From an uncultured Thermomicrobiaceae bacterium (GTDB lineage: Bacteria; Chloroflexota; Chloroflexia; Thermomicrobiales; Thermomicrobiaceae), in NCBI GenBank assembly GCA_938082375.1, contig CALKCJ010000007.1:1-64000 (forward strand): a stretch of 64,000 nt of DNA, in the 5' to 3' direction. Numbering within the stretch: position 1 is the stretch's first letter; each line of letters opens with the position of its first letter. Shown piece by piece: positions 22,165-28,741 of this stretch. Below the pieces are notes generated by a model that searched no databases, was not told the DNA's origin, and saw only the letters and a list, made by a program, of their open reading frames with translations. The position numbers and the translations under genes were made by a program.

Positions 22165-22566
22165 TCAGGTGGCTGTGTCGTCGCGCAAGCGGCGCCCGGT
22201 GCCCAGCCGGGGCTCGGGCAGCGCGTCGTCGCTCGGCGCGCCGGTGGCGAGCCACTCGCTGAAGCTCGGATCGTGGCGGGCGAGCTGGTACTCCTGGTAG
22301 ATCTCCTGGCAGATGGCCCGTAAGCCCCCGCTGCCCGGCGTCGCCAGTACCAGCTCGAGGAGCCAGGCTTCGAAGACATCAGGGTCGGGATCGGCCTCGA
22401 TCACCCGCTCCAACACTTGCCGCTTGAGGCCCAGGCCGATACTGTCAGGCGTCTGGTCGCGCTTGCGCCGCTTGCGCCGCCCCTCGGCCGCCTCGAGCGC
22501 CTGGAGCAAGGCCCGGCTGAAGGCCGCCGGGCGCACCAGCGCGGAGCGATCGGTCCATCCAGCCAT
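22165..22566 (-). CDS. Conserved-looking hypothetical protein at the end of the formate dehydrogenase operon
   Basis: The 133-residue protein is charged and mostly helical, with a basic patch EGRRKRRKRDQ and the central LERVIEADPDPDVFEAWLLE. No family is recognised. It starts behind GGGAGA and lies 15 bp after fdhE on the same strand, so it is likely co-transcribed with the formate dehydrogenase genes and may be an accessory factor; that is inference from position only. Confidence 0.55.
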   Translation of the reverse strand: MAGWTDRSALVRPAAFSRALLQALEAAEGRRKRRKRDQTPDSIGLGLKRQVLERVIEADPDPDVFEAWLLELVLATPGSGGLRAICQEIYQEYQLARHDPSFSEWLATGAPSDDALPEPRLGTGRRLRDDTAT

Positions 22567-22581: not shown

Positions 22582-23460
22582 TCAGGCCTCGCGGTCGCGC
22601 GGCACGACTCGCGTGTCCAACTGGAAGCCGAGCGGGCCCGGTCGCCGGTACTCGCGGTCGAGGGCGACCAGGTCAAGCTCGACCGTCATCAGATCCTGGA
22701 GGAGCAAGTCGCCGAGCGACCAGGCGGTGATAGTCGAGAAGGTCTTCAGGTAGCCCCGGCAGCGCTCGCACACCTCCACGCGCTGCGTATCCTGCTTGCC
22801 TTCCTCAGCCAGGTAGCGCAACGTCCGGTGGTCGGCGTTATCACAGAAGGGACATTGCTGGTGCGGGTATGACCACTCGCTGGCGCAGCGGCCGCAGCGC
22901 AGCCAGCGGCTGCGCTCGAGCCCGCGCAGCTCGGCGAGCGCTGGCCAGGCGCCGCAGACCGGGCAGTAGCCGGCCCGCCACGCGAGCTGTCGCACCAGAT
23001 CACGCGCCTGGCGCCCGCAGGTGCCAAGCACTGGGAGAGCCAGTGCTTGACCAGCCACCGTGAGCAGCGAGGACGGTACGCTCGCCTGCACCGCCAGCCG
23101 CTCGAGCTCGACCTCGCGGTGCGCGATGCTCGCCGCCAGGAGCGCGACGGCGGCGAGCCTGCCGCCGGTCACCGCGGCCCGGAGCTCCTGCCCGCCCTCG
23201 ATCGATTGCGATGCGACGACGCGGGCGAGTTCGTCGAGCAGGAAAGCGAGTCGGGCGCTCTCGACTCCGATGGTACGCTCGTGCAGGAGTGGAGCCCGGG
23301 ATGTGCCGTGCGGCAGCGCCACGAAGTCGATCGAGACCCCGACCTCCCACGCCGGATCGGCAGCCGAGCGGAGCGCCGCCGCATAGAGGCGTGCCAGCGG
23401 CGCGGAGACCGCGTCGTCACGGGCCAGGGCCTCGAAGCGCTGGAGAGTGGTGCCACTCAC
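22582..23460 (-). CDS. fdhE: Formate dehydrogenase accessory protein FdhE
   Basis: The 292-residue protein has the four Cys pairs of FdhE in the C-terminal half: YCPVCGAWP, LRCGRCASEW, CPFC and CERCRGYLK, which bind iron in characterised members. FdhE is needed for maturation of respiratory formate dehydrogenases. The N-terminal half is helical as in the family. The GTG start overlaps the stop of the preceding lipoprotein gene, so translation is coupled. Confidence 0.88.
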   Translation of the reverse strand: MSGTTLQRFEALARDDAVSAPLARLYAAALRSAADPAWEVGVSIDFVALPHGTSRAPLLHERTIGVESARLAFLLDELARVVASQSIEGGQELRAAVTGGRLAAVALLAASIAHREVELERLAVQASVPSSLLTVAGQALALPVLGTCGRQARDLVRQLAWRAGYCPVCGAWPALAELRGLERSRWLRCGRCASEWSYPHQQCPFCDNADHRTLRYLAEEGKQDTQRVEVCERCRGYLKTFSTITAWSLGDLLLQDLMTVELDLVALDREYRRPGPLGFQLDTRVVPRDREA

Positions 23461-23694: not shown

Positions 23695-24579
23695 TTACGC
23701 CGCCTCCGATGAGAGCAGCATCACGACCCGCAGTACGAACCCGCCGACCAGCACCAGCAGCGCGGCGCCGGGCACCGTTAGCCTGCCGAGCAGCGGGCGA
23801 TAGTGCAAGAGCCCGGGCACCAGAATGCCCACGAGCACGACGCCGAGGACAAGCAGGACTCCCCAAGCGTTGAACAGCACCGGGCGCAGGACGGCCATGC
23901 CGACCGTCGCGAGGAGCACGATCAGCACGACGAGTTCCAGGCCGAGCACCCAGGTGTCCAGCTCCTTGAGCCAAGCCAAGGCTGGGAGGTTCTGGCGCCA
24001 GCTCAGCAGGATCAGCAGCGCGGCGCCGGTGGAGAAGCCGGAGAGGAGGAAGAGCAGGCCGAGCCAGACCGTATCGCTCCAAAGCGGGCGGTTCGTGGTC
24101 GATAAGAGCACGCCGGTATACCCAGCCAAGAAGAAGCCGGAGATACCCCCCAGGACATTGACGACTGCGCCCAACCCACCCTGCACCAGCGCCTGTAACC
24201 CGCGCGGCAGAATCCCGACCTCAGCCAGACCGCCCACAAAGGCCAGGAAAGAGAAGAGCCCGAACAGGAGGAGACCCCACGACCCGACCGAGATCGGCGA
24301 CCACCACTTGAACGCCGGTGCGAAGGTCTCGGACTGGATCAGCATGTGCCAGAAGCGCTCCGGCCGCTTCAGGTCGGCGATCAACAGGATGCCGCTGATG
24401 ATGCTGCCAGGGAAAGCGATGTAGTAGCCCAGGCGGGACAGCGGCCGATCGACCTCGCGCCCGAACAGGCGCAGGAGCGCGGCGATGGCGAAAGCGCCAC
24501 CAGCGATGCCGCCGACGAAGAAATAGAAAACGATCCACCAGCGCCATTCGGGCGATGCCGTGAAGAAGCTATCCGGCAT
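23695..24579 (-). CDS. NrfD/PsrC-type membrane subunit of formate dehydrogenase
   Basis: The 294-residue protein has about eight membrane helices. The first segment, WRWWIVFYFFVGGIAGGAFAIAALL, and the following DRPLSRLGYYIAFPGSIISGILLIADLKRPERFWHML are diagnostic of NrfD proteins, which anchor Mo enzymes and pass electrons to quinone without haem. The start at 24579 (MPDSFF) overlaps the Fe-S subunit gene by 11 bp; the longer open frame upstream is a shadow of that gene. Confidence 0.88.
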   Translation of the reverse strand: MPDSFFTASPEWRWWIVFYFFVGGIAGGAFAIAALLRLFGREVDRPLSRLGYYIAFPGSIISGILLIADLKRPERFWHMLIQSETFAPAFKWWSPISVGSWGLLLFGLFSFLAFVGGLAEVGILPRGLQALVQGGLGAVVNVLGGISGFFLAGYTGVLLSTTNRPLWSDTVWLGLLFLLSGFSTGAALLILLSWRQNLPALAWLKELDTWVLGLELVVLIVLLATVGMAVLRPVLFNAWGVLLVLGVVLVGILVPGLLHYRPLLGRLTVPGAALLVLVGGFVLRVVMLLSSEAA

Positions 24580-25399
24580 GGCTCCCGTCTCCTTCCTGCT
24601 GCTCCCGAGCCTCAGCGGCCAGCTTGTCCATTCGCTGCTTGCGGAGGCCGACAAGTCCGAGCACGCCGAGCGCGACGGCGCCGGCCGCCGAAAGGCCGGC
24701 CGACGGCGCGACGTTGCGGCTTGGCAACTGCGGGTTGGATGGCAGGCCGTAGACTTCCGGTTCATCGAGCAACAAGTAGAAGGAGTTGAGGCCACCCAGG
24801 ATCGACTCGTCGTGCCCGTAGAGCCGCGCCTGGCTGACGCCCTGGGCCTGCAACTGGGCCAGGCGTGCTTCCGCGTGCTGTCGCAGCTCGGAGATCGGCC
24901 CGAACTGGATCGAGTGCGTCGGGCAGGCCTGAGCGCAGGCCGGTACCATGCCTGCTTGCATGCGGTCGTAGCAGAGCGTGCACTTCATCGCCGTGTTGGT
25001 CTCGGGGTTGATGTCGATCACCCCGAACGGGCAGGCCGCGATGCAGGCCCGGCAACCGTTGCAGACATCGGACTGGATAACGACGGTATCGAACTCGGTG
25101 CGGATAATGGCCCCGGTTGGGCAGACCTCGAGGCAACCGGCTTGCACGCAGTGCTTGCACACGTCGCTCATCATCAACCAGCGCCCACTGCTGCGGTCGG
25201 GGCTGAACTGCTCGATGAACTTGACGTGGCGCCACTGAATGCCACTGAGCTCGACGGTATTGTCGTAGCTCTGGCCGGTGAGTGGAACCTTGCCGCCGTT
25301 GCGGGCCGGGAGCTGGTTCCAGGCCTTGCAGGCGACCTCGCAGGCCTTGCAACCGATACAGACGGACGTGTCGGTGAAGAAGCCCATCGGTTCGGCCAT
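24569..25399 (-). CDS. Formate dehydrogenase Fe-S (beta) subunit
   Basis: The 276-residue subunit has four 4Fe-4S motifs: CIGCKACEVACKAW, CKHCVQAGCLEVCPTG, CNGCRACIAACPFG, and CTLCYDR with CAQACPT. Near the C-terminus lies a hydrophobic segment, AGLSAAGAVALGVLGLVGL, that may anchor it to the membrane, as in the beta subunit of FDH-N. It transfers electrons from the Mo/W subunit to the NrfD-like subunit. It starts 65 bp after the catalytic subunit. Confidence 0.92.
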   Translation of the reverse strand: MAEPMGFFTDTSVCIGCKACEVACKAWNQLPARNGGKVPLTGQSYDNTVELSGIQWRHVKFIEQFSPDRSSGRWLMMSDVCKHCVQAGCLEVCPTGAIIRTEFDTVVIQSDVCNGCRACIAACPFGVIDINPETNTAMKCTLCYDRMQAGMVPACAQACPTHSIQFGPISELRQHAEARLAQLQAQGVSQARLYGHDESILGGLNSFYLLLDEPEVYGLPSNPQLPSRNVAPSAGLSAAGAVALGVLGLVGLRKQRMDKLAAEAREQQEGDGSHAG

Positions 25400-25464: not shown

Positions 25465-28400
25465 CTACTGTAGCCTCTCGACGTTACAGCACAGCGCCTT
25501 GCTCTCGTGGATCGAGACGTTGGGGTCGCCGACCATCGCCGTGAGGTCGTTGACGATGTCGCCGGTGACGATCCCCATGTAGCCCCAGTGCCACGGCATG
25601 CCGACCTGGTGGACAACCTTGCCATCGATCATCAGCGGGCGCAGGCGCGGGGTGACAAGTGCCTTGGCCACGATCGAGCGGCGCTTGGTCGTGATCCGCA
25701 CCAGGTCGAGGTTCTTGATTCCCTTCTCCTGGGCGAGCTCCGGGCTCATCTCGATGAAGAGCTCGGGTTGCAGTTCGGCGAGCCATGGGAGCCAGCGCGT
25801 CATCGCTCCGGCCAGGTGGTGCTCGGTGAGCCGGTAGGTGGTGAGCACGATCGGGAAGTTGGGATCGGCCACCACGGCGAGCTGGTTCTCCTCGTGCTGC
25901 CAGTACTTGGCGATCGGGTTGTGCTGCTGCTTCGGGTAGAGCAGGTTGACAACGGGCGACTCCATCGGCTCGTAGTGGGTCGGCAGTGGCCCGTCGGCCA
26001 GCCCGACGGGCACGAAGAGCCAGCCTTTGCCGTCCGCCATCATGATGAAGGGGCTCTTACCGTCGTGAGCATCCAGGCCAGTCGCGCCCGGCTTGGCTGG
26101 GGTATCGGGCGCCTTGGTCGCCGCGAAGTCCGGCACGTCGTAGCCGACCCACTTCTTCTGCGCGGCGTCCCACCAGATGAACTTCTTGCGCTCCGACCAC
26201 GGGTTGCCGTCTGGATCGGCCGAGGCGCGGTTATAGAGGATGCGGCGGTTAGCTGGCCAGGCGTAGCCCCAGTGGAGGTTGGTGCCCGGCTTGTTGTCCG
26301 GATCTGGCTCGCGGCTGCGGGCCAGCAGCTTGCCCTTCTCTGGGTAGATACCGCAGTAGATCCAGGAGGCGCAGGTCGTGGAGCCGTCGTCCTTCAGCTC
26401 GCCGAAGCTCTTGAGTAGCTCCTTGGAGCCAGTCTGGTAGCCGTTGATCTCGCGGATGATCTTGAGCACGTCTGGCTCGCCCTGGATCCGCGTGTCGGTG
26501 GGGTATGTACCTGGCTCGTAGTCGAAGTCCCAGAGGAGGTTCTTGATCCCCTCGTCGCGCGGCAAGGTGCTGTCGGCGTACAGCTTCTTGAGCCGTAGTG
26601 CAAGCTGGTGCGTGAACCAGGCATCGGAGCGGCAGTCACCCGGCGGGTCAGCGGCCTTCTCGTGGAACTGGATGAGCCGCTGGGTGTTGGTGAAGGTACC
26701 CTCGACCTCGCCGACCTGAGCCGAGGGGAAGAGGAAGACCTCGGTCTTGATATCCTCGGGCTTGAGCTGGCCACTCTTGACCTCCGGCGAGGCGTACCAG
26801 AAAGAGGCTGTCTCGGTCTCGAAGTTGTCCTTGACCACGAGCCAATCGAGCTGCATCAGCGCGCGGCGTTGCAACGCAGCGTTAATCGAGGTGGCCGGGT
26901 TCTGGCCGAAGATGAGCGCGCCCTTCACCTCGCCCTTCGCCATGGCGATCATGGTCGGCATGTGGGAATAGTCGCCAGCGATCTTGGGGTGCCAGTCGTA
27001 GCCGAAGTCGTTCTCCGGCGTCGCGGCGTCGCCGTACATCGACTTGAGATAGCTGACCATGAACTTGGGCAGGTTGGCCCAGTAGCCGGTCGGCCGCGTC
27101 TCGGTCAAGATGTAGTCGGTCAGCGTATCGTGGGCCTTGCGGGCATCCGGGTGGGCCATGTAGCCCTGGATCGAGTGGTAGAGCGTGGGCACGTCGGTCG
27201 AGCCCTGGATGGTCGCGTGGCCGCGCAGGGCTAGGATCCCGCCCCCTGGCCGCCCCATGTTCCCGAGTAGGAGCTGGAGGAGTGCAGTGGTGCCGATGGT
27301 CTGGACACCGTAGGTATGCTGTGTCCAGCCCATGGCGTAGACGAAGGTGGTCGTCCGCTCCGGGCCGGAGTTGGCGGTCACGGTCTCCGCCACCTTGAGG
27401 AACACGTCTTGCGGGCAGCCGGTGATTCGCTCGACCAGCTCCGGCGTGTAACGGGAGAAGTGCCGGCGCACGAGCTGGAAGACACTGCGCGGGTGCTGGA
27501 GCGTGGGATCCTTCTCGGCGGCTGGAGGCACCATCTTCTGGATCATCTCGGCGAAGGTCGCGGCCTTCTTAGCCTCCTCGCGCGCCTTGGCAGCGTCCCA
27601 CGGCTGCACCCGCTTATACTGCCAGGTCGCGTTGTCGTAGATGTACTTCTGGTCGCTCCCCTGCGGCGCTTCCTTGAGGCCGGAGAAAACCCCCTCGAGG
27701 TCTTCGGTGTCCTGGAACTTGTCGTTGATGATGGTGGCAGCGTTGGTGTAGTTGACCACGTAGTCCTTGAAGTACTTCTCGTGCTCGATCACGTAGCGGA
27801 TCAGCCCGCCCAGGAAGGCGATGTCCGTACCCGAACGCATGGGGACGTAGAGGTCGGCCATGGCCGAGGTGCGGGTGAAGCGCGGGTCGACGTGGATGAG
27901 CGTTGTGCCGTTGAGCTTGGCCTGGGCCACCCAGCGGAACGCGACCGGGTGGTTCTCGGCCATGTTCGAGCCCATGATCACGATACAGTCGGCGTTGACG
28001 AGGTCACCGGGGAAGGTGGTCGAGCCACCGCGCCCGAGTCGCGTCCCCAGACCGGGGACGGTCGAGCTGTGTCATATCCGGGCCTGGTTTTCGATGCGGA
28101 CGATCCCCAGGCCGCGCATCAGCTTCTGCTGCAGGTGGTTCCACTCGTTATCGATCGTGGCCCCGCCGAGGGAGAAGATGGCCGTGGTGTGCATGACCCG
28201 CTTTCCGTTGGGCAGGGTCTCGACGAAGGTCTCATCACGCGTCTTCTTGACCAGCTCCGCCACCCGATCCATTGCCGTATCGAGGTCGATCAGCTCCCAC
28301 TGGGTGCCGTGGGGCGGGCGGTGGAGTACCTTGGTCAGCCGGTTCGGGTTTACGTGGAGCTGGTAGGTCGCTGCGCCCTTGGGGCAGAGGTTGCCCATGT

Positions 28401-28650
28401 TGATCGGGCTCTTCGGGTTCCCCTCGATGTTGACGATCTGGCCGTTGACGACGTGCACCAGCGTGCCGCACCCGACCGCGCAGTACGGGCAGACGCTGGG
28501 GAAGGCTTGTGCGTTCTGGATACGCAACGACTGGGCGCGCACCTGCTTGGGGTGGAGGTCGACTCCAAGTCCCAGCAGCGCCCCGACTGCCGTCCCGGCG
28601 GCCGCCCCACCCACTTTGAGAAAACGGCGTCGCGAGAGTACGACAGCCAT
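25465..28650 (-). CDS. Formate dehydrogenase catalytic subunit, selenocysteine-containing
   Basis: One frame runs from ATG 28650 (ribosome site AAGGAGGG) to 25465 with a single in-frame TGA at codon 193, predicted to encode selenocysteine; total 1061 residues. The N-terminus has a Tat signal SRRRFLKVGGAAAG, then the 4Fe-4S set CPYCAVGCG and NLCPKG. The region across the TGA reads NQARI-Sec-HSSTVPGL, matching ARV-Sec-HGPTV in the FDH-N family, and continues ADCIVIMGSNMAENHP. The molybdopterin-guanine-dinucleotide domain at the C-terminus (LTTYRLTEHHLAGAMTRW) is present. It oxidises formate to CO2 on the outer face of the membrane. Genes for selenocysteine insertion are not in the window. Confidence 0.93.
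28042..28060 (-). promoter_or_regulatory. SECIS element, selenocysteine insertion hairpin
   Basis: Eleven bases after the TGA on the - strand, CGTCCCC and GGGGACG form a perfect 7-bp stem closing a GGTCT loop. The loop sequence is that recognised by SelB in the E. coli fdhF element, and the distance from TGA to GGTCT, 18 nt, matches what I recall for fdhF. It lies within coding sequence. Confidence 0.85.
28072..28074 (-). other. TGA selenocysteine codon of the formate dehydrogenase
   Basis: The TGA lies in frame between GCC CGG ATA and CAC AGC TCG, at the exact place of the active-site Sec/Cys of formate dehydrogenases. The residue binds the Mo or W atom directly. Confidence 0.92.
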
Positions 28651-28741
28651 CAGCCTCGCCCTCCTTACTACCTCTCGGCACTGTCATCGGCGCGGCGCGC
28701 CAAACGAAGAATTAGAGCGACGAACAGAGGAGGATGTTAAT

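Follow-up and report, generated by a model that had tools for sequence, protein, structure and literature searches.

The window analysed here, a stretch of 64 kb (64,000 nucleotides) from an uncultured Thermomicrobiaceae bacterium, carries on its minus strand a formate dehydrogenase (FDH) operon of five genes. Its first gene, fdhA, contains an in-frame TGA followed by a hairpin with the hallmarks of a selenocysteine (Sec) insertion element (SECIS). The features are as follows.

28660–28668 (approximate, by eye), minus strand: Shine-Dalgarno-like AGGAGG 5′ of the fdhA ATG, AAGGAGGGCGAGGCTG-ATG
25465–28650, minus strand: fdhA, predicted FDH-N-type catalytic subunit, 1,061 aa with Sec193, ending at TAG
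28072–28074, minus strand: in-frame TGA, codon 193, predicted selenocysteine, in the column of the Sec of Desulfovibrio gigas FDH (1h0h)
28042–28060, minus strand: putative SECIS hairpin CGTCCCC-GGTCT-GGGGACG, 11 nt 3′ of the TGA
24569–25399, minus strand: fdhB, iron-sulfur subunit for electron transfer, with a hydrophobic stretch at its C-terminus (TIGR01582, 186 bits, below cut-off)
23695–24579, minus strand: nrfD-like integral membrane subunit with a probable quinone site (PF03916, 84 bits)
22582–23460, minus strand: fdhE, FDH accessory protein with four CX2C motifs
22165–22566, minus strand: orf133, uncharacterised conserved fifth operon gene, 133 aa, all-helical model

The nrfD-like gene is listed as an ORF at 23695–24795, and its start is likely the ATG at codon 73, that is, at 24579. 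The order fdhA-fdhB-nrfD-fdhE recurs in other genomes, among them those of Thermomicrobia, Gemmatimonadota and Rokubacteria.

The reading frame of fdhA (28650 to 25465) has a single interruption, the TGA at 28074–28072. The standard ORF list splits the gene into two minus-strand pieces of 192 aa (28072–28650) and 838 aa (25465–27981), exactly the pair that the first-pass annotation had expected from standard gene finders. Taking the TGA as Sec joins them into one frame of 1,061 aa, with U193 lying in ENQARI-U-HSSTVPGLG. The product opens with a Tat-type N-terminus (LSRRRFLKVGG) and matches TIGR01553 (formate dehydrogenase-N alpha) at 1057.9 bits (cut-off 814.2) over residues 5–1059; both this match and that to the Pfam Molybdopterin domain are continuous over the TGA. 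At the metal-ligand position, TGA193 and His194 supply Sec plus His, as FDH-N alpha requires (Sec or Cys, then His). On alignment to solved formate dehydrogenases, the column of TGA193 falls within QARIXHS of the D. gigas enzyme, where X is Sec, in agreement with the first-pass assignment of the TGA to the active-site Sec/Cys position.

The perfect hairpin reported at first pass is indeed present, separated from the TGA by the 11-nt spacer CACAGCTCGAC. When set against the criteria for bacterial SECIS elements (bSECIS) as quoted in PMC13188914 (Fig. 2A), its 5-nt loop and 7-bp stem lie within the ranges of 3–9 nt for the loop and 4–16 bp for the upper stem, and its GGTCT loop has G in the first two positions (typically G[G/U]). 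The distance from the UGA to the apical loop is 18 nt (range 16–37 nt), and the 19-nt hairpin folds at −12.7 kcal/mol (threshold at most −7.5 kcal/mol). The bulged U in the upper stem that marks the E. coli fdhF subtype is lacking, the stem being a perfect 7 bp. The element thus qualifies as a bSECIS while departing in this detail from the E. coli subtype, and SelB is predicted from its sequence to bind it.

Within the window, no other GGTCT-loop hairpin with at least five Watson–Crick pairs was found, and a first-order Markov model expects about 0.017 such hairpins with seven Watson–Crick pairs per 64 kb. When codons are redrawn according to fdhA's own usage with the protein sequence unchanged, perfect stem and loop occur together in 0.6% of these synonymous recodings, and folding as stable as the native occurs in 24 of 1,000. 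Against dinucleotide shuffles, the stability of the 61-nt hairpin region is not unusual (z = −0.48) because the region is G+C rich, and an Rfam scan of the window returned one tRNA only and no SECIS family match. Since the shuffle test does not discriminate, the case for the hairpin rests on comparison, that is, on covariation of the stem and conservation of the loop codons.

In an alignment of 43 distinct homologous elements, 94% of stem cells are paired and 23 have changed on both sides. The covariation score of the stem is 0.301, against 0.170 ± 0.014 for shuffled alignments (0 of 500 reach the observed value) and at most 0.142 in a control with the 3′ arm slid. The signal is carried mainly by two of the seven stem pairs; pair 4 exchanges C-G for G-C among homologs, and 16 of the 43 elements lack pairing at the outermost position. 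Of the 52 distinct homologs with Gly at the loop, 49 encode it by GGT, a codon used for 11 of the 84 Gly residues in fdhA.

Homologous loci, 107 in number and spread over several phyla, carry at the Sec position TGA in 101 cases, Cys in five and TAG in one. Every homolog above 54% identity that covers this position, among the matches listed, has exactly one TGA. The nearest named relative by FDH is Thermalbibacter longus (94% identity), which puts the organism within or close to the Thermomicrobiaceae. All five Cys variants belong to Dehalococcoidia, and their stems are imperfect and their loops altered. The single TAG stands as the Sec codon of the FDH in a Modestobacter MAG (L096), before the same SECIS hairpin, and fits the UAG-Sec decoding reported in the related actinobacterium Blastococcus (PMC5330540). 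In Rokubacteria, eight loci (L062, L063, L064, L087, L129, L098, L099 and L109) retain the stem and have loops that depart from GGTCT (GGACT, GGCTT, GGGCT, GGTTT or GCTTT), a pattern that suggests a SelB with a different loop preference.

The assembly that holds the window (3.36 Mb, 61 contigs, 99.97% complete) encodes all four Sec genes, for which the first-pass annotation had advised looking; its stated ground for refutation, a complete genome lacking selA, selB and selC, thus does not apply. The tRNA-Sec gene selC (C28:18387-18479) scores 73.5 bits, over cut-off, and ARAGORN calls it a tRNA-SeC with anticodon TCA; selA lies on contig C5 (532 bits), selB on C11 (347 bits, counted with the neighbouring stretch) and selD on C39 (368 bits). 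SelD is itself a probable selenoprotein: its gene (G000:C39:18-950, L020), whose start is probably cut off by the contig end, has an in-frame TGA in CAG-U-AGK with a hairpin loop 31–33 nt downstream. A second FdhA (C19:112007-114991), 59% identical to the first, has the same TGA and the hairpin GGTGCCC-GGTCT-GGGCGCC.

Three AhpC/thioredoxin-like genes (G000:C11:98770-99153, C34:9201-9572 and C29:21138-21452; L139–L141) also carry an in-frame TGA, placed at the redox motifs FTSG-U-GDE, GFA-U-PYC and TYC-U-INC, and probably encode further selenoproteins. Each has an AGTT-loop hairpin; that of the FTSG-U-GDE gene is weak and, without a bulge, falls short of −7.5 kcal/mol. In at least five genes besides fdhA, an in-frame TGA thus coincides with a redox or active site. 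The bacterium accordingly belongs with the Sec users, and its probable selenoproteins number at least six, a lower bound obtained by checking known families.

Taken together, we consider it about 97% probable, judging from sequence, that fdhA encodes the Sec-containing alpha subunit of a periplasmic, membrane-bound FDH-N-type formate dehydrogenase. The Sec readthrough proposed at first pass is supported by the readthrough gene, the Sec position and the hairpin conserved in homologs, and the gene model becomes one selenoprotein of 1,061 aa in place of two ORF pieces. In the proposed mechanism, SelB carrying GTP and Sec-tRNA(Sec) would bind the hairpin just 3′ of the UGA, which would then be decoded as Sec193. 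The exported subunit would hold a Mo or W cofactor with Sec193 as a ligand and take part in formate oxidation, and electrons would pass to the iron-sulfur subunit, from there to the NrfD-type membrane subunit and on to the quinone pool.

A TGA inside an ORF looks broken by eye, and standard calling yields two pieces, as would be expected if the gene for a Cys-type formate dehydrogenase had been turned into a pseudogene by a nonsense mutation or by an error in sequencing. The same TGA, however, is conserved across genera and phyla, in relatives that were sequenced independently and share as little as about 45% identity; both halves of fdhA are highly conserved, the hairpin co-varies and the sel genes are in the genome, so that we hold decay or error to be extremely improbable. 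Little more can be said for two separate proteins. An ORF for the 838-aa part with an internal GTG start at 27981 does exist mechanically, but the fold and the unbroken domain matches span both parts, full-length homologs hold them in one frame joined by TGA, and the active-site residue sits between them.

The occurrence of in-frame TGA in several genes could also point to a general reassignment of UGA to an amino acid such as Trp or Cys, or to reading by a suppressor without a SECIS. Such a reading has a very slight chance of being correct, given that TGA terminates 11 of the 23 window genes examined, that every in-frame TGA examined occupies a redox or active-site position and has a hairpin downstream, and that a tRNA-SeC with anticodon TCA is present along with selA and selB. 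The evidence leaves practically no room for nonsense mutation, two genes or general TGA reassignment, and favours a Sec-containing FdhA.

The finding is real yet ordinary, as related bacteria commonly show the same arrangement. Among bacterial selenoprotein families, FdhA is described as having the widest distribution (PMC13188914), and the fdhA described here therefore adds to an already known kind. The first-pass remark that selenoproteins are uncommon in Chloroflexota proved wrong, at least for the machinery: selA scored over cut-off in 318 of 400 sampled Chloroflexota genomes, and the Sec machinery is therefore common and widespread in this phylum.

The absence of fdhD, together with orf133, may matter more than the Sec finding. 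Despite its two Sec formate dehydrogenases, the genome gave no fdhD in searches with TIGR00129 and PF02634, and PF02634 found none in the 20 family relatives searched (20 of 20 without a match), while matching 8 of 14 control genomes including E. coli. FdhD is thus missing from 21 of 21 genomes of the family, several of them about 99% complete, and by our tally 18 have an FDH match. In E. coli, FdhD is a sulfurtransferase that sulfurates the FDH cofactor and is needed for active FDH, and fdhD is, according to a review, missing from some FDH-expressing organisms (PMC10609526). With E. coli requiring fdhD and this genome being without it, FDH activity here may therefore depend on an unknown factor.

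The product of orf133 is strongly conserved, with the core GRRRRRKRDTTPDAIGL and GAPSDDA, and has no Pfam or NCBIfam match, with loose thresholds included. Its model is helical with moderate confidence (pLDDT 76), and a fold search with this model gave no match (best E 3.4). In Thermomicrobia, Gemmatimonadota and Rokubacteria alike, orf133 is found as the fifth gene of the FDH operon. Within the order, it occurs in 32 genomes and fdhD in 21, with only three having both, a near-exclusion with Fisher p = 2.7 × 10⁻⁵, uncorrected for shared ancestry. One genome (G009) has an FDH and neither gene, which calls for caution.

A simple replacement of FdhD by orf133 was considered and is not supported, because the two genes can share a genome: they are found together in Gemmatimonadota, in Rokubacteria and in one Chloroflexia MAG, and in other phyla most genomes with orf133 in the FDH operon have fdhD. 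It is possible that orf133 is a general FDH maturation factor and that fdhD was lost later in one lineage. An alternative route of FDH cofactor sulfuration or insertion in the family without fdhD, possibly via orf133, seems rather unlikely on present evidence; if true, it would explain both FDH without FdhD and the conserved orf133.

Selenoproteins have been described before in this phylum: a 2006 survey listed three from Chloroflexi (PMC1794560), and Dehalogenimonas alkenigignens was reported to have a Sec-FDH and a Sec-SelD (PMC4918011). Those described here belong to the same phylum and the same protein families and likewise combine an in-frame UGA with a putative SECIS, but come from a genome of the Thermomicrobiaceae. 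With the Sec-containing FDH-N alpha family (TIGR01553; E. coli FdnG, 1kqf; Desulfovibrio vulgaris FdhA, 6sdr/8cm4; D. gigas W-FDH, 1h0h), fdhA shares the Tat-type N-terminus, the Fe4S4 and molybdopterin domains, a QARI-U-HS motif in which the Sec residues align, an iron-sulfur partner subunit and FdhE; it differs in a genome without fdhD and in the additional conserved operon gene orf133. The membrane partner of E. coli FDH-N is a cytochrome b gamma subunit, unlike the NrfD-type protein found here, and a literature search for formate dehydrogenases combining an NrfD-type membrane subunit with selenocysteine found no papers. The hairpin, directly 3′ of the UGA, resembles other bSECIS elements in the size of its stem, its GG-initial loop and its spacing. 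The SECIS of E. coli fdhF contains a bulged U and its lower stem is longer, in contrast to the perfect stem here, and the first-pass equation of the two loops does not extend to that bulge; it does hold for the loop core, GGUCU, which both elements share.
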